The notes under the pieces were generated by a model. The model was not told where the DNA came from, did no database searches, and saw nothing but the letters and a program-made list of their open reading frames with translations. From contig OY783206.1 in assembly GCA_963678705.1 (NCBI GenBank), positions 19,169,807 through 19,233,806 on the forward strand: 64,000 nucleotides of DNA. Reading direction: 5' to 3'. Both the position numbers and the translations under genes were made by a program. This DNA is from Panorpa germanica. Lineage: Eukaryota > Arthropoda > Insecta > Mecoptera > Panorpidae. The first letter of the stretch is position 1. Each line of letters begins with the position of its first letter. Of this stretch, positions 21,701-59,974 are shown piece after piece.

Positions 21701-24700
21701 GTCTCAATTTTGTTGATTCGTATTCTTTTCCAAATATTGTGCTAGCATTTCATTTGCTCGCGCGTTCCATCTTGGAATTCTGCAGTGGCTTCCTCTCCAC
21801 ATTATAAAATCATTAATATCAAACTTAACCCGACAATCCTCGCAGAAGTTTCTCACGCTGTCCTTATCAACAAAACCCAATACTGAATTCACTGCTTCCG
21901 CAATTTGTACTATACTTCGTTGTTTCAAAATTTGTTTGTAAGGTTCTTTTCCTTGACGCGCTTCTTTCTGTATGCTCAACAATCTTCTGTATTGCAGAAT
22001 CAACACCTTTCTTTTATAATAATATTCCACTAATTGTTGAGTATTAAAGCAGCTTGAAAAATTGTGGAATTTCTTACCGCGATCTTTCACATTATTATTA
22101 AAGTTTTTATAATCCTCATGCCTCCAATGTACTGTTACAACAGGCTGATTTATTACGGAATATTTCACAGCACGAGCTATGTCATGTTTCTTTAAGTGAA
22201 GAATTCCTAGAGCTTGAGTGAAATTAAATTGGGATTTTTTTAAAACCTTGTTTATATAATTTTTTAGAGTTTTGAAATTTTCTTCGGATTCATATCTGTT
22301 ATCGGGTTTCCATAAAACCGTGACTTTTTCCTCGATTTCCGTTTTTGGTCTACTAATCATATGCGGTATTTCTGCTTGATGGTCTTTTCCTATTTTAACT
22401 TTGTGTTTTCTGTTATAATTACTTTGTGGATATATTTCGGGACCACACTCTCGAGTATCTCTTCTTACCTCTTCTGCATCACCTCCTAGAGCAGTATCTA
22501 CGTCGTCAACAACAATAATTGGTTCTTGCGTATCCATTTCTTCGACCTGGTATTCCATTTCACCAGTTTTAACATTAAATACTATCATCAGATGCGCAAA
22601 CGTTGGAAGACGGCAGAAATTCTATTGGAAATACATGAAAAAACATGAAAAGTGAATTGATGTTATTTAAATTAATATAACTTCAAAATAAACGCATGTG
22701 GTCTGTTGGGTTTCAGAAACCTTATCAATACCAATAGGACGGAAATCAATAATTTAAAATTACTCACGTCGTAGTTTAATAAATTAACAGATTTCTTTTT
22801 GACATTTTAAAATATTATATTTGCTTCTGCACGTGCATTATAAAACATAAATTACGAATTAAATATTTGTCAAAAGAGTTGTCAGTTGTCAGAAAACAAT
22901 ATAATACAAAAGAACTTAAATTTATAGATATTAAACACAAAAGTTTTGAAAACAATGGCTGCTCCCATTGTTATTATTAAATTAGTTGTCTTGCTATAAC
23001 GGACCTTATCGGTAGAATATTGTAAACCTTTGTACAAATATAAAGGATGTCATTATGATTATGTCATTACCCTTAAAATTTAAAGTCGATTGACTCGAGA
23101 TAGTTTTAACGAAAGTTCTAATCATTTCCACGGTAGTATACATTGGACGTGTGCTTATGCCAGTCTTTTATTCTTTAATAAAAAAAACAAATCATTATTA
23201 TATTATCATATTTTTCCAGGTTTTGGATATTGAAGGACCCGCCCCACAACCTTCGCAGTATGTTAATTTGGTATTGAGGCGCCCAGATCCTCGAAGGAGG
23301 TCGACACAAACATGGAAATTTACAGAAGAAGGTCGACTGACATGCGCTCACAACAATATGTGTGTTCAAGCTAAAGATGGCTTCTTTGGATTACGTACTG
23401 GTAATTAAACGTTCAAATTTCTAATTTTCTCGATATCCACTAAAATATTCATGTATATTCCAGACGTAAAATTTAATTATTTTCCTAAGACTCAAACCAT
23501 TTGATAATATACCGGATAAGTTTTTTAATTTTTTTTTAAAAGTTGACTGGATTTACTTGAAACTTTGCGAGTTTATTTATTATATATTAGGGTATATTCA
23601 TGAATTTTTTCACTGAGCAAACAAATTTATTTATTGAGTTATGATAGAGAATGTATACTACCATCGGAGATGTGTACTGATATGATATACACGATAATTG
23701 TCCGTAATAAATAATATTATATAAAACGGTTTTTTAAATCAGAAAATAGGTCCGCCTCGAGCGGAAATATGTCTTACAGTAACATACCAAATTTGAGCTT
23801 AATCGTATAATTAATTCTCAAAATATATGTACTTATTTAAGAAAATAATTTTCCACTTGATTAATAGCCATCCATATAAGCACTAATGCCATTACCTCAC
23901 ATATTATTTGTAATGTAAATATTACAATGCTTTTATAATTTAATTTGCCTTTTTTTTAATTTCATGGTTGCAGGGCCTGGCACTAAACATGCAATGTGGC
24001 AACCGTGTATGTATTTTTAAAAAAGAATTGTATATATTTATAAAAGAAAATAACTCAAAATATATTTTACAATTTTTTTGCGAACTTTTTTGTATTCATG
24101 GTTTTTTATTTTCTTAGGGAGTGAAGCTGTGCTTGGCCTACCCCAGCCTGTAAGTCATCGTTTTACTGTAACGGGGGTTCCCCTAGAGCAAGCTGTATCT
24201 AAACAGAGACTACGTCCTGGCTCCGGCTTTCTCCGGGTCAATATCACAACTGATGGCCCTACGAAAGTTCTACAAATCCATGATATCAAAACTCCTGTAA
24301 GTAACCTAACATTATCAATCTTCAGGTGCTCTCAAATCGTTCGATCTTGGATATCTGCATTTAAAAGAATTATCTATTATTATCTTGTATAGATCTCAGC
24401 GCCTCTTCAATGTGATTGGAATTTGAATATGCCGTCATCTTCAGTGGCTCGTGGATCCTTTTCTCCGAGAACTAGAGAACTACAGGTGCATGTTAATCTC
24501 CAAGGCGGTCTAGGAGTGTCTTTAGTGTCAAGAACACCTCCTGAAGAATTGTTATTTATGTCTCTGTCTGGTATTTTAGTCAGTGTGAACATGTCCAGAG
24601 TTGCACAGGCGTTCGAAATGAAAGTAGAGGATATACAAATAGACAACCAGGTAAAATACAGTCATTTTTTATTTTAATGTATAATTTTTAAAATGTATAT

Positions 24701-34856: not shown

Positions 34857-36036
34857 ATGGCGGTAAATGGAGCACGGCTGCTGCTAGTGGCGGTAGCCAT
34901 GGCATTGTTTTTTCTGACCATCGAATCGCGCAATGATTTAACACGGCACCCCAACCTCCTAAACGGAACGTTAGTTAACTGTAAGTATTTGAATGATATC
35001 TTTTTACAAAATGAATCCGCTCCAATTTCCCGTCTTAATTGATGTTTTCTTTTTTTGCAGTAACTCTAAACGAAACGCCATCTTTAAAAACTCCAGCAAA
35101 GTATGTATACCCCTCAAATGACGAACCCCGCAAAACGGAAATGAACGAATTTATTAACAAACATGTCTCTCCCAATTTAAACAACAACTACGGTAAATAT
35201 GATTGCACATCTGTTGTTGAAATAATTCGCCATTTAATGAAGAGACCATGTTTTAATTGCCTTTATTTTTTTAGTGGAAACCGATCGATCTGCTACAGTA
35301 AGTTCAAAGAAACTTCACCGTGGACATCAAAAATCGCATAAACACAGCGACCACCAGTCTATGAAAACCCATAAGAATAAGCATCAGGTCCACGACTTAA
35401 ACCAACGACCAAGTTTGGCAAAGAAACATAGAGGTGAGTACTGCTTAATATATCTTATTTTTATGCTACACCCCGACCCACAACGTTTCCAATGCTCCCT
35501 TATTTTATTTTTTAGGTTTTCCAAATTAATTTAGATTTTCACAGTTACAAAATAGCCACTAGTTAGTTTAGTTAGTTTTATGATTCCAATTTGTTAACCG
35601 AGTTCTATGTAGAATGCGGCACTGGTTGGTCGGTTTAATTTATGTTCTGGTTTTTGTGTTGAGCTAATTATTGTTTTTGTTTGCAGCTTCAACTATACCT
35701 CCGCCAGATAACTATCCTTCAAAACAAAATAATGAAGATTGGTCGTGCGGCATAAACCTAAACCTGTTGTGCTGCCCAGCAGTAAACAAAGATATTGATG
35801 ATTTGAACAAATTACCGACACCGGGTCAAACACCGTGCCGATGTCGATGTAAGAAAATGCCAGTAAAATACACCGATCCTAATGATTCTGCAAAAGCGTT
35901 AAAAGTAGAAGTGATGGCTGCTACAGATGAGGACGTGATGAATACCGAATATCCATATTATGAGAATACCGATCGCGGCTGGACAACTGCTGACGTTGGC
36001 AGCGAAGTCAAAAGAAAGAACGCTGGACGAACGTAA
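34857..36036 (+). CDS. Small secreted protein with CCxxx/CRCRC motif (unrecognised)
   Basis: Four exons with matching phases: 34857-34980, 35061-35192, 35275-35433, 35687-36036 (TAA); about 254 aa. The first exon encodes a typical signal peptide (MAVNGARLLLVAVAMALFFL). The middle is hydrophilic and histidine/lysine-rich (KKLHRGHQKSHKHSD). The last exon has its only cysteines: WSCGINLNLLCC and PCRCRCKKM, six or more cysteines that could pair or bind metal, then an acidic tail. AATAAA at 36218-36223 is a good poly(A) signal. I do not recognise the family; probably an insect-specific extracellular protein. Confidence 0.72.
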
Positions 36037-36217
36037 GACTGGAACAACGTCCTCCAGCTCCAGACAACAATCTTCAAATTCCCAGTACCAACCAGTGACA
36101 ACTTCAAACCACTAATTTGGACGACCGCTAAATTCAAACGCAACACCACGTCTGTGTGTACGGACGGATTCGATTTAATTGTCAATGTGATGAGTAAAGA
36201 GTAAGACAAATTGCGGC

Positions 36218-36223
36218 AATAAA
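36218..36223 (+). other. Poly(A) signal candidate
   Basis: AATAAA about 180 bp after the stop codon of the secreted-protein gene. Confidence 0.5.
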
Positions 36224-36959
36224 CAGTGCAAAGAAACACTCAACAAATATTGTGTTTCAAAAATACGTAAGATGCAAATTAAGTGTTGAAGACGTTTTCG
36301 AAACGTGATTATATGTACTTAGGGTAGTTTCCAAATGGTAATCATTCGTACTAAGAGTATATGATGTAATATTACACTTTCAGTGAAATTGTGTTATTTA
36401 AAGTGATAGTGATAATTGTTACGTGTTTAAAGGATGTAACTACAGAAGGTAACGTACCAGAAATGTATTATTTTTATATTATTACCAAATTAGTTGATTT
36501 AAATTGATTAACATCGTTAAATTTTGTCCAGTATGAAAAATCGCACTAATATATCATAAGTGATGGTCTAATGCAGATATCGATAGTCTACTTCATTATT
36601 GAGACATTTCCGATAAATTGGTTTCCTCAAAATAAAGATATTTTACTAATAAACTGGATGATCGATATATAACATAAAAGCTGTAACAGTCAGTTTTTTA
36701 AATCGCACAGTACAATTTATTATCAGAATAAAAATATACTAATTTTCAAATTTAATTTCGATGCTGAAATTGTATTTAACGCCTGAACGAATACTACAAT
36801 TATAACATAAACACAACTGCCATCTGTTAAACAAATACATGACTATAAAATAGTTTAGTTTCTATAGTACAAACAAAATAAAATCACAATTATTTTAGTA
36901 ATTGTCAATAGCTTTTAGAAAATAAATTTTATAATATTTTTAACAATAAAATAATAAAT

Positions 36960-39575
36960 ATGTATGAAGAAATAAATCCAATTCATCTTGTGTGTTATGC
37001 AGACAAAATGAATAATAATTTATCAATTTCTGAGAATGGTATGGTGTCAGTGGCCCGCAGTGGAAATGTAAATGTCATTCCGATAGATGAGAACAGTGTG
37101 AGAAGATCTAAATTCATTTCTTGTGCAGGTCACGGTGTCTTTCCAAGAGAATTTGTTACCCAGGTATAACTTTTTTCTATAGAAACAATTCATTAAACGT
37201 TATTGTTTGCTGATAAATTTTCTAATTAACCAAAATTATATATTTTTAATAATACATATCTTATTAAAAACATACATATATTAATTAAGTAATGTTCAGA
37301 AACGAAGTGTATATTTGTGTTATTAGACTGGATGGATGGAACTTATGGATGAAGACTATTTAGTTATTTTATCAACGCTGGGCCTTCAAATTTATGACCC
37401 TGATGGATGTTCAGTCGTATTTTCACATAAATGCAAAGACACCTCTAAAGAAGGTTCGTAAACCGGATTTTATATAATACAAATCATGCAAAAGTTAGAC
37501 AGAGTAATGAAAGTTGCACAAAATACAGTGCTTTAAATGTCTATCTAATCGCAATTTCTGTCGAGTTTTAATTTTGTGCCGTTCATGAGATATTAGTATT
37601 TTAATTTTATAGCATTGATGTACTTTAGTACTACAGATTGATTTTAATATTTTATAGGTTATGCTAGAGGCCTTTATTTTTATAAAAATTATTTATGTGT
37701 TGGCAATAATACGGGACATATAATGCCGGTTTCACACCAAATAGACAGTTGCAGTTGTATGCAACGTTGCAATGTGGTGCAACACAACGAGTTGCACTTT
37801 TGCACGTTGCACGGCAACAGACTATTTGCATGGAACAGACCCATAATACCGCGTTCACACCAAATAGACAGTTGCATTACACTGCAACAAAAACTGGTTT
37901 TTTTTAAAAGTTGCATCACTGTTTACACCAACTAGACAGTTTCTGCAACTTTTTTGTCATTTATTGAAGTTGCTTGCAACACAACAGAGTCCCATCTCGA
38001 GTCGGTAAAGATCAAAAGAAACACGGTTGCGTTGCTTTATTCTTCTTGGTTTGAACATGCAATTTTATTTTGTGTATACGTTTGACTGTACAAATATACT
38101 TCAGAGAAATACTCATGTTTGGATAGAAAGAGATAAAAGTATATTCATTTCGTGTTTCCCCTTCTCTTGTATCGAACGCAGTGGGCAGTGTACCGTGTGC
38201 AGAAAAAAATAACACTGCGTATTATTAATAACATTTACATACAGCAAGCTTGTTTGGTAGAAAGAGATAAAAGTATATTCATTTCATGTTTCTCCCCTCT
38301 CTTGTATCGAATGCAACCGAGTTTCTTTCATCTTTACACTTTACCGACTCCGTGTTGTGTTGCAAAGGACTGCAATAAATGACAAAATCGTGTCTAGTTG
38401 GTGTAAACAGTGATGCAACTTTTAAAAAAAACCAGTTTTTGTTGCAGTTGCATGCAACTGTCTATCTGGTGTAAAACCGGCATAAGAGTCTTTCAATTTA
38501 TGAATATTTCAAATAAACAAGTAAGTGATTTTTAACTTTGCTAAATCTTAGACTTAAACCTTTTTACACTGACATAAAAAACTGGAATTTTACCTTACTA
38601 ACATAATAGTTTTTTTCAATTTATGTATTTTCTTTTTAGTTTGATTCTATAATCGTTAAATTTACAGATATATAGCTATTTCAAATTTGTATGCGTTTTC
38701 TCATGAGAAATGGTTTCGCGTCATTTTTGCAGGCGTAGCTTATTATATTAGCCAAGTGATTAACCTCCTATGTTATTATTTAATAAGAATTCAGCTATTT
38801 ACGCAAACAACTACATAAATATGAAATTATTTTGCAGATTTCTTTGCGAAGTTCTCGCTCAGTGCATGATAGCCCAGTTCTCTGGATTTCTGGCTCCGAT
38901 GAAATAGTAGCTTCTTCAGCAGCTAATAAAACAATAGCTGTACACGATACATCTCAAGGAAAACTTAAAACTCTCCATTTTCTTTTACCAAGGTAATTAG
39001 TCACTTTCCGAACTATGTGGATCTATGATAACAACATAAACATGTTTTAATTTTATGTCTTAGTTCTAAATGCCTCAGTTTAATAATTAACCAGGATGTA
39101 ATGTATGCAGCTTCTGGAACAGGATTTATATATCTTTACGATTTTTTTAATATAAAAACTACTAAAAACGCACCAATGTTATTAACGGAAATAAAAGCGC
39201 ACAAAAGTGAAATAACTAGAATGAGCTACGCCGCAGATACCTTATTAACAGCATCGTCAGATGGATGTATAAAAATTTGGAAAAGTCAGAAAACTAATAC
39301 AAGGGTAATATAATTATTTTAATATATTTCAGGAGGTGAAAGATTTCTGCACCTAAATGGTTTGCGTCCTTAATAGATAATTACAAATTTTATAATGAAT
39401 TATGTATTATTTGCAGTTAGAGAATATATTTGAATTAAAGATTAAAGAAGGTATATGTGGTGCTTCATTTGCTTCGAAATTAGCAAAGCGCTTTTTTATT
39501 GCAGTGCCTGAATCAACAGAAGTAAAAGTTTTTCGATTTAATGGAGTAAATAGGTCAACTCATATAACTATTTAA
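36960..39575 (+). CDS. WDR54: WDR54 orthologue, third coding exon split by a MITE
   Basis: Exons 36960-37163, 37327-37453, 37658-37723 + 38486-38520 (one exon split by an element), 38838-38992, 39064-39304, 39417-39575 (TAA). Without the insertion the frame is 328 aa, close to human WDR54 (334 aa). WDR54-like blocks: GLQIYDPDGCSVVFSH, ARGLYFYKNYLCVGNNTG, a beta-propeller segment ending ASSDGCIKIWK, and the C-terminal GICGASFASKLAKRFF then VKVFRF, all collinear with the human protein. The family is a WD40 protein of poorly known role. The 759-bp insertion brings an in-frame stop at about 37936, so this allele is either broken or depends on splicing the element out. Confidence 0.85.
37724..38482. 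mobile_element. PIF/Harbinger-like MITE (family C) inside WDR54 coding exon
   Basis: 759-bp element with 30-bp terminal inverted repeats differing at two positions (both ends start TGCCGGTTT and contain ATAGACAGTTGCA). It is flanked by a 3-bp direct repeat TAA (37721-37723, 38483-38485), the TWA target typical of PIF/Harbinger. Long inner arms (about 37877-38022 versus 38336-38460) are complementary. The centre holds a direct duplication of about 70 bp (from 38117 and from 38254; GAAAGAGATAAAAGTATATT). A second left terminus, preceded by TAA, starts at 37847 (TACCGCGTTCACACC), suggesting a nested or tandem insertion. No transposase. Confidence 0.88.
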
Positions 39576-39602
39576 ACAATTTACTGCACTGTTATATATT
39601 TA

Positions 39603-39608
39603 AATAAA
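39603..39608 (+). other. Poly(A) signal candidate of WDR54
   Basis: AATAAA 28 bp after the WDR54 stop codon. Confidence 0.5.
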
Positions 39609-40060
39609 TTATTTACTATTTTAGTATATTCCCTTTAATTATAAAGTTGTTCTGAATTAAAAGAAACATTGCCTTTTAGTTTTAAAAGAACCGCTAAATT
39701 GTAGATCATTGCCATATGCTGAAAATGCAGGGTTATATTTCTGTGTATCATTTTTAAGTCATAATTTTCTGGTAAATAGTAATAGCTAACTGTAATTAGA
39801 AGGATATTTATTTATATAAATATTTTAGTGGATTTCGTATCAGTAGTTATATGCTGTCATTTGTTATAAAGTGTTTATGAATATACAAATACATCTGGCA
39901 ATACTGTTACAATTTCATACTTATTTTTTAACTCATTGTATAAAATTCAGTTCATGTAGTGTACATTACACGTCAAAAAATTCTAAATATATATATGTAA
40001 ATATATATATTAAAAAAAAATTAAATTATAGTGTTAAAAACATAAGTGTAAATAATAAAA

Positions 40061-43000
40061 ATGTCAATAAGAACAAAAGTTTTGGGTTTAGTTGATGTAA
40101 TATTAAGAGTTCCACCATTATTTTTATTAGATGAAATATTTAAAATTGGACTTGGTTTACCAATATCGACAGAAGATAATTATTTAGCTGCTAATGAAAC
40201 AACGGGATCATTTAATGATTCTGATAGTATAACATATGATGCAGATTTTTACAGAGTTCTTCTTATGACAGCAGGCAAATTTTTAATTTGTTGTTTGGGT
40301 AAGTCTTTCTATTGATATTCTATTTCAACATAACCTCAATTCGTGATATAGATATTTTATACATTAACTTAGATACCTATCTATTAATTATAATTACATT
40401 ATTTACAATTGTGTAAAACTCTTTCCTTAATAAAGTAGAACATACTCCATATATATTTGTGTCTGTTAACATATTTTGGCAATTTGATTTTTTACAGTAT
40501 TACTTAATTTGTTATTTCAACATAAACATAATAAAATAATAGTTCCATATATATATTAGTACATATTAAAGTTCTTTTTTAATGAAATGTCATCGATAAA
40601 AATAAACCAGATCTTTTTTTAATAACTTAATTTAAGGTTATATACATAATTAAACTACTTTATTTGATGAATATAATAGTTTTAAATGACTAATAAAGCA
40701 AATTATATATTTATAGTGATACTTTTACTATTTGAAGTCTTTAGTCTGTATATATTTATGTAAAAATAGAGAAACCTTTAATTTCAATGAAGTAACCTTG
40801 AATTTTAAATATAATAAACATAAAATATTTTGCATGAACTTTAAAACCACTTGAAAATATGGTATACTTTTTACGTTTAAAATCTTAAGAATATTGTTAG
40901 TTGATACTGTTTATTATTATTTTGTTGGGGCACTTAAAATAAGTTCAGGGAAATGGAATACACAAAGTGCATTTGTTAATTATATGTTAAAGAGTGTTGT
41001 TAGAAATCATGCTTTGAATTAGTATACTCACAACACTACTTCTGAAGAATTATACAATCCCAACACTTAAGTACTTTTTAAGGAATAAAAGCTTTGGAAT
41101 ATTTATAAAAAATAAAGACACTCTTAGATTAAATATTGCTAGGTTTTGCTTAAGGGGGAGTAAGGTTTAAATTTTTTAAATTTATTTACATTAATGTACA
41201 ACCTATTAAGTTTATTGTGTGAAAATTTGAAATCGATTGGAGTAAAACTGTCGGAGTTTTAAGTCTTCACCTCTCTGGTCTGGTTTCGTCTTTTTTTGAA
41301 ACTATTGAACGCGTTATTTTGACTTCTAAGTGCTGTAAAAAATTGAAAAGAAAACAATAAAGAAAAAAAACTCAACAGAGTTACCTGCACAAACTTATCA
41401 ACTAATGAAATCTTTTTGATTTTTTTATTTTAAATAATCCAGTGATGAGTTATGAGTGACACCGTAATTAAACTTTTTTTTGTGACGTCTGCGGAGATTC
41501 GCTGTCAATGGCTCATTTCTTGATATTTATTTATGAAAATTTCACAAAGTATTCTTTAAATGTCATTTTATCATGTAGTAATTTTAAAAATAATTATAAA
41601 TTAACTGTGTCGTCAAAAAACATTATCGAAAATATGCTTTTTTTTTGTGTCGATTTGACCTTATACCCCCCTTTAAGTAAAATATCATATGAGTGTATAG
41701 TATAGTTCAAACAAGTTGTACCGTTTAAAAAAGCACTATTTTGCTAATATCTTTATATAGGGAACGAATAAGATAAAATTCACCATTGCCTCTTATAGCC
41801 TCTTTTAACATGAGTGACGGCCGAACTCTCGTAGTTTGAACTATCCATTCACATTTTGTGTTTTGCGGGTATATTATGTAAACAAAACCTGTCTTATGTA
41901 TTATTTAATGTAATATTCTTTACCAAATGTTATGTTTTATTATATACCAATGTTTAATGTATTTTTTAGGTATATGCTTTATAACTTTAAACTTTATATA
42001 TAACTTTATATGCGTATAACTTTAACACTTGAAAATATGGTATACTTTTTGAGAACTATATCTTAATTTCTATAAAATTGTATTATATATTGATAAAGTT
42101 GGCTATCAGCACATCAAATGTACAATTATTTTTAAATAACTCGCTATATTTTAAGAGATAATAAAAATTAAAAAATGAATTTTGTTTCTTCATGTTATAG
42201 AAAATTCAATGCATGGTATGCATCAGAGAAGCTAACGAATGTGTTTGTCATTTACTACTAACAGCTGGGTCGTGCACCCCTCAAGTTTTTTTTATGATTG
42301 TTGTTAGAAAGGGAAAATAACTTCTATTACTTATGCCGTATTATGCATTAAGATCACTGTCTCTATTTTCATATCGTTTTTTTATAGTAGTTTAATTGAA
42401 ATATTGGTTGCAACGTTAATTTTTTCCTGAACTAAAATCTAATACGATATAATTTAGACGGTCACCCTTATTTTGCAATAAAACACAAAAAAACCCCTCA
42501 GGGTTGCGGAAGTTCCAAAAGACAGCACTCTATATCTTGACAACACGTTGTAAGCCTAAAGACACTACCACATTATGACTTATTATTATATTTTTAAGTG
42601 GACAACTTTCTTTACAGTTCGTACTATCAGCTGTACTGATGTTGTAACAGTCTAGTGCGGTGCGTGCTGAGGAGTAGTTGTATGCGATGAACTTTGCCCA
42701 TGATACGATAAATTTTAATACCGCGAAGTCATTATGAGTATTTAAATTTAATACACGTTTTTTTTTTATTAATAATATTATTTCACTTTTTATTTTTTAT
42801 GACAGATATTAATTTTTGAATTATACCAAAATTTATTTGCACTCATTTTTTAATGGTCGATTTTTCAATTGTTGATTGAAATTGATGTTAATAAATGTAT
42901 ATTGGTGTTTTTATTTTATTAAATATCTAAATGTTGACGGAGATATAGCAATTAAAAATTCGAGTTGTAATTTTAGCGCTAGAGATGGTCGGCCATATTT

Positions 43001-46000
43001 ATGACGTAACATATTGCACTATTTTGGGATAGGTCAGTTATTTGTTATATGTATAAGAGTTCTGTGTTAAGTATGCTGTCTGATATATAGAAAGCGATGG
43101 CAATATAACGGACGTGACGTTACATGTACTGGAATTTTCTATAGCGTTGAATCCCTTTAATAATTTAAGTGAAAAAATGACCATTTTAATTGTTAATACT
43201 CCTAAAATATAAGGAGTTTCTATCTTTTATGAATACAAAGTTATACAGTCCCACTTTTTTCCAGTTTTTCCAAAATTACGGGTTTCCAGGAAATTCAGGG
43301 GAAAATCCGGATACGCCAAAAGTCTTAGAATTTTTTTTTCTACGAAATAGGAAATTTTTAAAACTTTCCTATAGCCGTTTTCGAGCTACCATACAAAATT
43401 GACTACCAAACATTTAAGAATATAAGATCACAATAATATAAACATACAAATAACACCTGGAAAATTATAATATAGGATATCACAATTTTAAAAAGGCACA
43501 TCAAAATGGTTTGAATCCTGAATTATTTTTTTTTCTTCTCTAAACTTCCACGAAATTTGGGTATGCCGGGAGAGGGGAGGGAGGAGTATCAGAATAGCAG
43601 TAATTTTGTTTGACATAATTTATGAGTGACCCTTAATATATAATCAAATTTCTGTATCTGTTTTTCTTTTTATAATCATACCCTCTACTTGAAATTCCTT
43701 TCGAGCCATCACTGTGTTTTGGGAAACATATTTTTCGGGATCTTTTTTGGATCGTTTTTATAAAATTAAGCAAAATTTCTTGAGGCTACAATAATTTCAT
43801 TTCCTAATCGTTGCAAAACGTTTATAAAAGTAAAATACAGGAAAGTATAACCATGAAACTAGCGCTTGCGTATTTAATGCACGCGTTTGTTAATTACGTA
43901 TAATTATTATATAAATAATTGCAATTGTTGTTACTTAATTAGCGAAACCAATTTATGTTAAACGTAAAAACAAATCACAATATTATTGTGTAACAATAAC
44001 AATATGTGCAGGTGCCAAATGAAAATCTATTTTTTTTTTGACTTAACAGTTCTCAATACCTCAAAAAAATCACTTGAAATATCTTGAAAATTTAAATATA
44101 TGTATATTTATTAATATAGTGTATGTAATATGTTATACGTAGAAAAGTTTCTATTCTTCTTTCTGTACTATTTTAAAATTTTGACCTTATTCCGACACTG
44201 ATCTATGTTTTGTGATATAGCAATGGTAATTTTTTTACGATTGTTTTGAAAAATTTAGCATCGTTCATTGAAATTATTACAAATATTGTCCTGTAAAGAG
44301 AATTACAACTAGCTTTATTTAATGTTTATAAAATATGTTGAAGTTTTCGATTCACCTCGCGTACCGACGTGCAATAAAGTGTCGTAGAAACGTAGCTTTA
44401 AAAAGAACTTATTAATAAATATGTCTTCTTCTTCTTTTCAGGTTGCATCAGCTCTCTATGTATCTTCACATTATGGACCAAACATTTAGTCTTAGTATAT
44501 ATGTACCTTCTGTCAGTGGGCTTAGTATTTATCAGCTACTGGTGCAATGTTTCAGCGATGAAATTAATCACATCAGGTCCAAGTTTGTTAGAAGAACTTT
44601 TATCCCTAAATATAAAGCAACTATTGGATCCTGGTGGTCTAGCTAGTTCCCTAATTCCCCACTTCGTAATACAGCTTCTAATGGCCGTAGCCTTCCAATA
44701 CATCCACCTAGGCCCTAGATACAAGTCCACGCAAAAAATAATCCCGTATAGTTTTATATTGCCTGTAATATTAGCAACATTACCTCTGCCTCAAGCGACA
44801 ATAAAGCACGCGCCAGTTTTTGCTGCTTTACTGCCCTTAACATTGGTGAAAATCGCGTTATGGGGGTCCGTTTTCGAAGTTCTACAAACCCTCTACGGAG
44901 GGTACCAACATGCGAGAAGTTTCGCCAGTAATTTTGGGCTTTCAGCGTTGGTAGAAAGTCAATGGCAGCGCTTGAATGTTCCTTGCGTTTTGCGGGCGTT
45001 TTGGATATTACGTCTTCTGGAACAAACACTCAGCATAGTTCTCCAGAATCAAACTTCAATCGCTAATATCATTCAAACTCTTCTGGTAAACGGATGTGAA
45101 ACAATCACCGCCGTCCTTGGGATGACCAGTGTCGTTAGTTTAATTTGTCATTATATTGGAAAGTATTTTCAAATATTCTTGTTAACGGACGATGATGAAG
45201 ATAAATCGATTGGGACGGTGTCAGCGATTCTTTTTTATATATTGGCGTTGCAGACTGGGCTAACATCTTTATCGCCAGAGAAAAGATTTGGAAGATTATG
45301 CAGAAATTTGTGTCTTCTTGTTACGGCGCTGCTGCATTTTATCCATAACATTGTGGCGCCGTTATTAATGTCTTTGAGCGCAGCTAGAAATCCATCGAGG
45401 TAAGCGGAATATTTACTCTATTTGTCTCCTTTTATTTTACATGATGGTGGACTACAATGCATCTACTTTCTAACGAAAATCGCGTAAAATAGAACAACTT
45501 TAAAGAAATCGTGTTAAATTTAAAAAAGAATTATTTTATGTTCTAAGAACCATACAAAAAGAAATAATGAAAACCCTTAATATATAAATTAAGCACTGTT
45601 CCTAAGTCTCTAAGGGTGTAATTATTATTTTTTGTTTCTCTGCAAATCCATAACTTCCACAAAAATTTTGTCAAACCTTTTTTGTAGATAATATTATTAT
45701 CTATATGTTTTAATTTTGTTTAAAAAAATTATACGCTAATATATATCTTGAAATGATATATTTTCTATTTTCAGACGTCGGCATATAAGGGCACTTTTAG
45801 TGTGTCTATTTTTGGTAGCTGCACCTTTAGCATTATTGGCAGCTCTTTGGGCGCGGCACCCACCTTCAACTTGGTTATTAGCCGTCACTGCTTTTAGCGT
45901 GGAAGTTATCGTCAAGGTAAGAATCAATTCACATCTTCCTTATCCAAAAACTCTTTGAGATATTTACGCCAAATTATTTATTCCAGGTTCTAGTGAGTCT

Positions 46001-55820: not shown

Positions 55821-56960
55821 AATATATATTTACGCCTAAAATAATATTATGCGTGCAACAGCGTGGCAAGTACTTTATATTTACTAGATCCTTAATTAAA
55901 GATTTAATTAAGGATTGCGCCTACATAGGATTTCTAAAAACTTTAGATCTTAGGTAAAAATTAACTTGAAACTACACTTTTATTTTTAGTGTTTGAATAA
56001 ACCGATAAATTTATGTTTTAAATAATCATAAAATTAAAAATAATAATATAATTCACAAACAAACCGCTAAAACACTAATTTTTAACTATATTTTCAATAA
56101 ATTACACTACGTTGTATGTTTTTATTCAATCACAGAACTTTCCTGCCTAAAAATATTAATAAAATGAAATTTAAAGTTAAAAATAGATCAAGCATTAAAA
56201 TAGTTTACTCAGTTTCTGCCAAAACTCTCTGTCCCTTTCTAACCAATGTAATTTGTGTGTTAATTATTGTTCTGTCAATTAATTGTATTTATTAGCGATT
56301 AATATGTAATTGATCTATAGAAACATCATATAATCGTATAAAGACAAAAACATACTCTAAAATTATTAGAGAAATATATTTTTTATTGAAGAGTAATATA
56401 TAGTTAAGAAACAAACTTTTATATTATTTTTTCAATTTCTAACTAGAGATGTAGGTACTATAGGTATCATTACATTTTTAAAATAAGCGCGTTTATTTAA
56501 AAAATTAAATTAGATTCTATCTGGTAGATTCCAGCTTTATTAAAAGTTATATAGATAATTTACAGTTGTTTACAATTCAATATAGTTTATGTTTGTAGGT
56601 GTGGTTTCGCGAGGTATAAGGCTGTTGCATGCTGTTCTGCTTTAAAATATTCTTATCTCATCACGTTTTATATTATGATTGTTATGAAAAAATCAAAATA
56701 ATCTAGATTACTTATTCTTTTTGTGACGTCATACGCAGAACTTAAACAGCCGGCAAACTGATATTCAAATTTGATATAGTTATGATTCTATCTATCAGCT
56801 TTTAAATATTTAAATAAAAGGGTACATTTATTAACCTATATTTCAAGAATTAAAAACAAAACGACTCCTAATATGTATTTTAATCAAGCCAACCTTTTAG
56901 TACGGATTTACATCCGTGATAGTAGATGCGTATATATCAGGCGTTATTATTTTTTAAAAA

Positions 56961-57602
56961 TGGGCTTGTGTCCTCATTTTTTAGTGGTCGATTTTTCAAT
57001 TGTTGATTGAAATTGATGTTAATAATTGTGTATTGGCGTGTCTATTTTATTAAATATCTAAATATTGACGGAGATATAGCAGTTAAAAGTCTGAATTGTA
57101 GTTTTAGTGCTAGAAATGGTCGGCCATATTTGTATGACGTGAAATGCATTTTAACGTCAGTTATTTGTTGAGTAGGTCAGTGCTGTGGTAATGTTCTGTA
57201 GCTGTTGGTAGTCAAATAATCAAGTCAAATCAAGATATAATAAGTTTTGATTTTATTTAACCCTGCTAAGGCAGACATAATATTGAAAATTGATTGATTG
57301 AGTGATTGAAATAGCTGTAAATAATATTTGATATTTTGATATATAAACACATATAGCAGAGATTTATGATCTGTAAGGTTGGTAACCTTACACAAGGATT
57401 GTGATGTCACATGCACTTGGAATGTGTACAACGTTGAATCCCTTTAATAATTAAAGAGACAAAATGACTTTTTTAATTGCTAATATCTCTTAACATATAA
57501 GGAGCTATCAAAAAATAATTGAACATTAGAGAGGTTCTAGTAACCCACTTTATCAATATATAGTACACTTTTATAGAAATTAAGACATAGGACACAAGCC
57601 CA
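56961..57602 (+). mobile_element. Family A MITE, copy 2 (642 bp)
   Basis: Complete element with perfect ends TGGGCTTGTGTCCT and AGGACACAAGCCCA. It is the longest copy and contains the full interior (GACGGAGATATAGCA, GAAATGGTCGGCCATA, GTGATGTCACATGCACTTGG). It is part of the first tandem unit. Confidence 0.88.
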
Positions 57603-58003
57603 TTTACAGGTGTTTACAATTCAATATAGTTTATGTTTGTAGATGTGGTTTCGCGAGGTATAAAGCTGTTGCATGTAGTTCTGCTTTAAAATATTCTTAT
57701 CTCATCAAGTTTTATATTATGATTGTTATGAAAAAATCAAAATAATCTAGATTACTTTTTCTTTTTGTGACGTCATACGCAGAACTTAAACAGCCGGCAA
57801 ACTGATATTCAGGTTTGATATAGCTATGATTCTATCAGCTTTTGAATATTTAAATAAAAGGGTACATTTATTAACCTATATTTCAAGAATTAAAAACAAA
57901 ACGACTCCTAATATGTATTTTATTCAAGCCTACCACCTTTTAGTACGGATTTACATCCGTGATAGTAGTTGCGTATATATCAGGCGTTATTATTTTTTAA
58001 TAA

Positions 58004-58612
58004 TGGGCTTGTGTCCTCATTTTTTAGTGGAAATTGAAATTGATGTTAATAAATGTGTATTGACGTATCTATTTTATTAAATATCTAAATATTGACGGAG
58101 ATATATCAATTTAAAGTTTTAATTGTAGTTTTAGCGCTAGAGATGGTCGGCCATATTTGCATGACGTGAAATGCATTTTAACGTCAGTTATTTGTTGAGC
58201 AGGTCAGTGCTGTGGTAATGTTTTGTACCTGTTGGTAGTTAAATAATCAAGCCAAATCAAAAAATAATAAGTTTTTATTTTATTTAACACTGTTACGGCA
58301 GATATAATATTGGAATTTGAGTGTTCCTTGAAATAGCTGTAAATAATATTTTATATTTTGATATATAAATACATATAGCAGAGATTTATGAGCTGTAAGG
58401 TTGGCAGCGGTTGCGATGTCACATGCATTTGGAATGTGTACAACGTTGAATCCCTTTAATAATTAAAGAGACAAAATGACTTTTTTAATTGTTAATATCT
58501 CTTAACATATAAGGACTTATTAAAAAATAATTGAACATTTGAGCTTCTAGTAACCCACTTTATCAATATGTAGTACACTTTTATAGAAATTAAGACATAG
58601 GACACAAGTCCA
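58004..58612 (+). mobile_element. Family A MITE, copy 3 (609 bp) with 8-bp target duplication
   Basis: Flanked by a perfect 8-bp direct repeat TTTAATAA (57996-58003 and 58613-58620). Ends are TGGGCTTGTGTCCT and AGGACACAAGTCCA. An 8-bp duplication suggests hAT- or P-like machinery, but the termini do not give a definite superfamily. Its right flank lies nine bases from the apparent splice donor of the 58630-58719 exon. Confidence 0.87.
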
Positions 58613-58629
58613 TTTAATAAAATATTTAC

Positions 58630-58719
58630 CATCTTAGCTCGTCTTATGCTTGTGTTAAGATCATCCCGAGTTATTGCTGAAGATGCAATATCTACTTGAA
58701 GAGCTCCCCACGAATCCAT
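58630..58719 (-). CDS. Possible alternative first exon of the F-box/LRR gene
   Basis: ATG at 58719 opens MDSWGALQVDIASSAITR, and the 30-codon exon ends AAG ATG followed by a GTAAAT donor, in phase 0. F-box exon 2 (from 54456) is also phase 0 and starts TIEKLPDKVLL, so splicing would give a join of RRAKM to TIEKLP. No other acceptor with a recognisable partner was found downstream. It could instead be the first exon of an unrelated gene. The 4-kb gap is filled by families A and D. Confidence 0.5.
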
Positions 58720-59204
58720 TGTAAGAACAATGAATCTTTAATAAAACTGAAATTAATCTATTTCTCAATAGATGTCACTATATATTAATTTAAAATTATT
58801 TTATAATTTATTTAATTTATACACTTTTTAATATCACTTATTTTATTCACGATAGTATCACTTATTTTTGTATTTTTTAAATTAAATTAATATTTAATTT
58901 AATATATGGTCATATATTTTTATTATTAAAAACTCAAAAGACCTCTTTGATGCGCCGCTAGTTAATTACTACTGTAAAATTAATTAAAGTCAAGACAAAA
59001 ATAATCACAGCCCGGCTAGAGAATAGTATGGTTTTAAACGCTAACTATATATTTCTTTATGTACTTCTTGATAGATAGCCACAGCTCGAAATTGCAGTCT
59101 AATTATATGAATATATCAGACAGGGGGCAGGCAAGGTTCTCTCTTCATGTGAACCGGAGTGTACGCACTTTTACACTCATTTCTACATTGAATAAATTCT
59201 AGAA

Positions 59205-59788
59205 TGGGCTTGTGTCCTCATTTGTTAGTGGTCGATTTGTCAATTGTTGATTGAAATTGATGTTAATAAATGTGTATTGGCGTGTCTATTTTATTAAATA
59301 TCTAAATGTTGACGGAGATATAGCAATTAAAAGTTTGAATCGTAGTTTTAGCGCTAGAGGTGGTCGGCCATATTTGTATGACGTGAAATGCATTTTAACG
59401 TCAGTTATTTGTTGAGTAGGTCAGTGCTACGGTAATGTTCTGTAGCTGTTGGTAGTCAAATAATCAAGTCAAATCAAAGAATAATAAGTTTTTATTTTAT
59501 TTAACCCTGCTAAGGCAGACATAGTATTGTAATTTGATTGTTCCTGGAAATAGCTGTAAATAATATTTGATATTTTGATATATAAATACATATAGCAGTT
59601 ATGAGCTGTAAGGTTGGCAGCGGTTGTGATGTCACATGCATTTGGAATGTGTACAACGTTGAATCCCTTTAATAATTTAAAGAGACAAAATGACTTTTTA
59701 AATTGTTAATATCTTTGAGGTTCTAGTAACCCACTTTATCAATATATAGTACACTTTTATAGAAATTAAGGCATAGGACACAAGCCCA
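59205..59788 (+). mobile_element. Family A MITE, copy 4 (584 bp)
   Basis: Complete ends TGGGCTTGTGTCCTC and AGGACACAAGCCCA. Flanking 8-mers TTCTAGAA and TTCAAGTA agree at six of eight positions, compatible with an old 8-bp target duplication. Internal deletion near 59715 relative to copy 2. Confidence 0.86.
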
Positions 59789-59974
59789 TTCAAGTACAGT
59801 ATAAGAATTCTGCACGTTTGCTAATTATGATGTAGTAAATGAAAAAATGCGAGGCACAAACTAATGTACAAGGTATTTAACATGTTTGATAGTTACAATT
59901 TTTGAATATGTTTTAAAGTTTCAGCTTATAATGAAAGTTTTTGATCTCTGGTATTAACCGCGGATGTTGCCATC

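Follow-up and report, generated by a model that had tools for sequence, protein, structure and literature searches.

Exon 3 of the WDR54 gene contained in the analyzed window, a stretch of 64,000 nucleotides of Panorpa germanica DNA, is split by a 759 bp insert, which we regard with good confidence as a recent cut-and-paste insertion of an internally deleted, non-autonomous PIF/Harbinger element, probably resulting in a null allele. This is a known kind of mutation, of which the locus is a clean example: a base-perfect insertional mutation, natural and still young, in a conserved gene that appears to be single-copy, with the likely mobilizing element located in the same genome.

The gene lies on the + strand and is composed of six exons, whose localization is reported in Table 1, along with the features of the insert. 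When 37724-38482 is removed together with one TAA, the two halves of exon 3 join into a 101 bp exon, in frame with both neighbours, confirming to the base what had originally been predicted. The insert-free model encodes 328 aa with no internal stop, and no other lesion is found in its 987 bp of coding sequence. The joined exons score 46.4 bits against the Pfam WDR54 family (PF21031), above the curated cut-off of 26.6; the score is 37.1 bits if the right half of exon 3 is omitted, 36.3 when a 41-codon piece of the insert is added, and only 22.7, under the cut-off, for the truncated product expected if the insert is retained. The restored residues CVGNNTGHI/RVFQ form one of five matches, spaced by 45, 41, 47 and 47 residues, to a loose WD-type motif, chosen after the WDR54 sequence had been seen; the insertion junction falls inside this one. 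Frame, Pfam score and motif spacing, all evaluated within this gene alone, support the derivation of the two halves from a single ancestral exon, as the original prediction held.

Table 1. Localization of the WDR54 exons and of the features of the insert (window positions)
Feature	Positions	Strand	Remarks
WDR54 exon 1, coding part, 204 bp	36960..37163	+	open frame; donor CAG/gtataa
WDR54 exon 2, 127 bp	37327..37453	+	
WDR54 exon 3 including insert	37658-38520	+	
WDR54 exon 3, left half, 66 bp	37658..37723	+	
Left target-site duplicate TAA	37721..37723		
PIF/Harbinger element, non-autonomous, 759 bp	37724..38482		ends TGCCGG...CCGGCA
Outer left unit, 120 bp, folding back on itself	37724..37843		present in 28 of 28 aligned copies
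Internal TAA	37844..37846		precedes second, internal left terminus (37847)
Long left arm	37847..38033		pairs with 38310-38482, ~79% identity
First in-frame stop, TAG, if insert is retained in mRNA	37933..37935	+	five more follow
Internal-deletion junction, element 360/361	38083..38084		~481 bp of the 1,763 bp class missing
Second internal-deletion junction, element ~511/512	38234..38235		~522 bp missing
Long right arm	38310..38482		
AATAAA within element	38374..38379	+	possible premature polyadenylation signal, putative function
Right target-site duplicate TAA	38483..38485		
WDR54 exon 3, right half, 35 bp	38486..38520	+	
WDR54 exon 4, 155 bp	38838..38992	+	
WDR54 exon 5, 241 bp	39064..39304	+	
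WDR54 exon 6 with stop codon	39417..39575	+	

The insert starts at 37724 and finishes at 38482 with inverted termini, matching at 28 of 30 bp. The whole window was scanned for pairs of 14 bp inverted ends flanked by TAA or TTA, with at most one mismatch, at a distance of 80-1500 bp and with low-complexity ends excluded: the only pair found is that of the WDR54 insert, while in 20 shuffled windows the same scan gave one hit in a single window and none in the other 19. Neither Rfam nor tRNA scanning produced a match in the window. An assembly artefact is very improbable: transposition accounts for the exact target duplication, the precisely matching family ends and the private internal structure, and the contig carrying the insert is 27.8 Mb long.

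The genome (464 Mb, 249 contigs) was searched for further copies of the element. At least 40 left ends are present, each matching the element from base 1 to base 355 or beyond; they come from the 40 scored of 615 first-look candidates, and are therefore a lower bound for the family. The 30 of these 40 left ends examined, WDR54 copy included, belong to copies featuring both ends in all cases but L043, where only the left one is seen. Identical 3 bp target duplications, either TTA or TAA, flank 28 of the 29 two-ended copies, the exception being L016, whose two flanks differ (TTA and TAA). L020 and L021 share their flanks, suggesting the duplication of a single insertion event; L038, being a portion of the L025 copy, was left out; L028 was counted with the closer of its two left ends. 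The inverted termini are kept across the other copies, with a few base changes in L026, L039, L042 and L044.

A much longer relative, 4,746 bp in length and flanked by TTA, is found on contig C237. It contains two genes: a DDE_Tnp_4 transposase frame (PF13359, 100.2 bits, E 1.1e-28), from a domain family which we take to cover Harbinger transposases, and, on the opposite strand, a MADF frame (PF10545, 65.4 bits, E 5.9e-18). A sequence search of PDB with the transposase frame gave no match. Known PIF elements are distinguished, according to PMC9710019, by the presence of two genes, a transposase and, in insects, a MADF protein. The 3 bp TTA/TAA duplication, the terminal inverted repeats, the DDE transposase partner and the MADF second gene are all found here. 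The assignment of the insert to PIF/Harbinger, proposed in the original prediction, is thus supported at the sequence level, because of the 28 target duplications out of 29 and of the longer relative, which carries both genes characteristic of the superfamily.

The description as a MITE, in contrast, needs amending. Copy number is high (at least 40 left ends), but MITEs are described as short, under 500 bp, in PMC4561436, while the WDR54 copy is 759 bp long and is derived by deletion from a family of longer elements, the 27 other aligned copies ranging from 1,105 to 2,954 bp. The insert is better called a non-autonomous deletion derivative than a typical MITE. Compared with the 1,763 bp class, it lacks two internal segments of about 481 and 522 bp, and it looks like a relative of that class with two internal deletions; the 759 bp form is seen only once among the copies examined. 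Scans of public prokaryote and viral collections with the terminal motif found no copies of the element.

Some other copies are worth reporting for their organization. L041 (280-3233) and L042 (290-1824) are deletion derivatives in which the initial portion of the transposase is retained; in addition, an apparent fragment of Tc1/mariner type, recognized by eye from the frames, lies in L041. In L009, a partial copy (443-598, element bases 1-156, 100% identical) directly abuts a full one, an arrangement suggestive of the insertion of one element into another.

The internal structure of the element is unusual. Its long arms fold into a strong hairpin, and the outer 120 bp unit has inverted arms of its own, with a score reached by none of 1000 shuffles. 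A second left terminus, preceded by TAA, is located 123 bp inside the element in all 28 aligned copies (the WDR54 copy and 27 others), at exactly the same offset in 26 of them and shifted by small indels in two; the C237 copy was kept outside both this alignment and the count of private substitutions given below. Such an arrangement might be read as two elements inserted in tandem, 120 bp and then 636 bp long, with a common TAA: the internal TAA, the second terminus which follows it and the inverted arms of the 120 bp unit all fit with this. Yet unit, TAA and internal terminus are also present in the 27 other aligned copies, and in three of them identity extends throughout the first 360 bp, past the border postulated between the two elements. 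As an event at WDR54 a tandem double insertion is accordingly refuted, and overall this reading is extremely improbable, although it could still describe the origin of the family. Judging from the aligned copies, the internal terminus is an older family feature, the element having moved as a whole.

The same comparison bears on age. The left 360 bp of the WDR54 copy show no differences from three other copies, and in its 759 bp only three substitutions (0.4%) are private, being absent from all 27 others; in each of these the private changes number 0-10, with 579-758 bases compared. The count of three is imprecise; one of the three sites, at base 516, is comparable with only nine other copies. 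Private changes may predate the insertion, so that age tends to be overstated. This near-identity to other family copies supports a recent insertion, in line with what had been anticipated. If the gene died when the element inserted, neutral divergence can be at most 1.7-3.1% (95%), given that no further lesions are seen and assuming indel ratios of 0.05-0.15. Conversely, simple arithmetic indicates that at 0.4% divergence a dead gene would remain lesion-free in 49-68% of cases; the clean frame is therefore uninformative on whether the gene is alive or dead. The earlier statement that the rest of the gene carries no lesion stands in that no other stop is found, while at such an age it cannot separate a dead gene from a live one.

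The original prediction called for a search of the assembly for a second intact WDR54. In a loose, first-look search no other full-length WDR54 was found: the 38486-39700 DNA, and likewise the protein segments encoded by exons 2-6, match the assembly at one place only. An empty-site allele was not found either, the inserted allele being the only one seen. Protein scans with WDR54 of public prokaryote and viral collections gave no relative.

Exon 1 behaves differently from the rest of the gene. The region 36010-37171, composed of upstream DNA and exon 1, is repeated at four further places (L045-L048), located at 19.39, 19.42 and 27.04 Mb on contig C3 and at 22.43 Mb on C4, with 76-94% DNA identity; all four repeats end 7-8 nt into intron 1, while a fifth match covers only 53 bp upstream. 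In the protein search, three places match exon 1 only, two with frameshifts and one with an open frame. These repeats are either decayed partial duplicates or a captured promoter.

The presence of the inserted allele only in the assembly also fits with a different history, overlapping with the preferred one, where WDR54 was already dispensable in this lineage and the locus is a young pseudogene, not a polymorphic null. WDR54 is reported at cilia in both human cells and C. elegans (PMC11317154). According to the same report, C. elegans single mutants, wdr-54 included, show no cilia-length defect; an osmotic-avoidance defect is ascribed to cank-26 alone, and cank-26 is the only gene named for chemotaxis. 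Because worm single mutants show neither a cilia-length nor, cank-26 excepted, an osmotic defect, a WDR54 null could survive. Knock-down in human RPE1 cells, in contrast, leads to longer cilia (PMC11317154), so the gene is not idle everywhere; moreover, no other lesion has accumulated in the coding sequence, although at this age the lesion-free outcome calculated above is quite common. Prior dispensability is therefore possible, although on the unlikely side.

As to the WDR54 product, transcripts retaining the insert meet six in-frame stops in total. Insert and duplicate add up to 762 bp, a multiple of three, and partial removal of the insert could keep the frame. Splicing might thus be imagined to remove the insert as a new, introner-like intron, leaving a near-normal protein: 22 in-frame, stop-free GT-AG pairs pass loose limits (donor >= -4, acceptor >= -6), and the long-arm hairpin could bring splice sites together. 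The two best in-frame pairs score 6.3 and 6.0, the range of the five real introns being 9.8-16.2, and would lengthen the protein by 40 and 36 residues inside the WD motif; the acceptor created by the target duplicate (CATAAG) scores -2.0. These values are obtained with matrices not trained on these genes, and weak splice sites can be used. Good frame-keeping splice sites near the element ends, as in introners, are not seen with the same matrices, and removal of the insert as an intron appears quite improbable. Skipping of exons 2 and 3, which keeps the frame (228 bp), was also considered and rejected, as its product scores 15.6 bits, under the Pfam cut-off of 26.6.

In the scheme which best accounts for these data, a deletion derivative of a family having a two-gene member in the same genome would have been moved, by the transposase of the 4,746 bp relative or one like it, into a TAA inside exon 3 of WDR54, in a recent cut-and-paste event. 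Transcripts retaining the insert would stop 70 codons into it, producing a protein of 202 residues, or be degraded; because of this the allele is predicted to be null or nearly so, and the insertion most likely switches off this copy of WDR54. Excision could restore the exon, as may be expected by analogy with mPing and with about half of the mJing excisions described below, making reversion plausible. Since all 28 aligned copies carry the TAA-preceded second left terminus 123 bp inside, an allele with three states may also be envisaged: null with the full insert; with a WD blade carrying an open insertion of 41 codons after loss of the inner 639 bp; wild type after full excision. This extension is improbable; if true, activity of the two-gene relative would make WDR54 switchable in the cells concerned. 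WDR54 being reported as a cilium protein, carriers of the insertion would represent a natural loss-of-function test of this role, and the locus could reveal whether this Harbinger family still moves.

Two further features of the window are reported. A long open frame with an ELM2 domain (PF01448), without visible introns, is located at 21704-22621 on the - strand, in a region also containing a VPS13-like gene, and is possibly a nested retrogene. At 56558-59793 lie direct repeats, about 0.6-1 kb in length and 85-90% alike, with relatives near 837-1434 and 42842-43046 (79-92%).

When the literature was searched for the terminal sequence, the matches listed look unrelated, judging by title; likewise, no case of a MITE in an insect coding exon appears among the matches listed, again by title, a statement which applies to those matches only. 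Several described systems share some features with the WDR54 insertion. Coral CMITEs are MITEs with repeated units, but they feature TTAA duplications, of piggyBac type, and arrays (PMC2872659), while the WDR54 family repeats its left terminus only, and only once, in the 28 aligned copies. The insect PIF/Harbinger sequences with transposase and MADF genes have the same two-gene make-up as the 4,746 bp copy; they are discussed as domesticated genes (PMC9710019), whereas a mobile family and its deletion derivative are found here. Precise excision is described as the general behaviour of PIF-type elements (PMC4561436). mPing, which also generates 3 bp duplications, excises precisely through microhomology of the duplicates and may serve as a model for WDR54 reversion; it was tested in yeast (PMC4561436), while the WDR54 element is known here from its sequence alone. 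Another case is mJing, a rice MITE located within HTD1 (exon 6); its partner element, Jing, has been compared with both Pong and PIF (PMC6850418). Differences are not lacking: mJing is 246 bp long, comes from rice, features a TAC duplication and was observed to excise, with one duplicate kept in 48 of 97 excisions and footprints or deletions left in the other 49, which being imprecise did not rescue HTD1 (PMC6850418), while WDR54 excision is only predicted. In both cases, a short non-autonomous element with a 3 bp duplication interrupts a coding exon, introduces a premature stop and generates a mutant allele (PMC6850418, for mJing; predicted for WDR54), and by this analogy mJing in HTD1 may be considered a close precedent for the WDR54 insertion.
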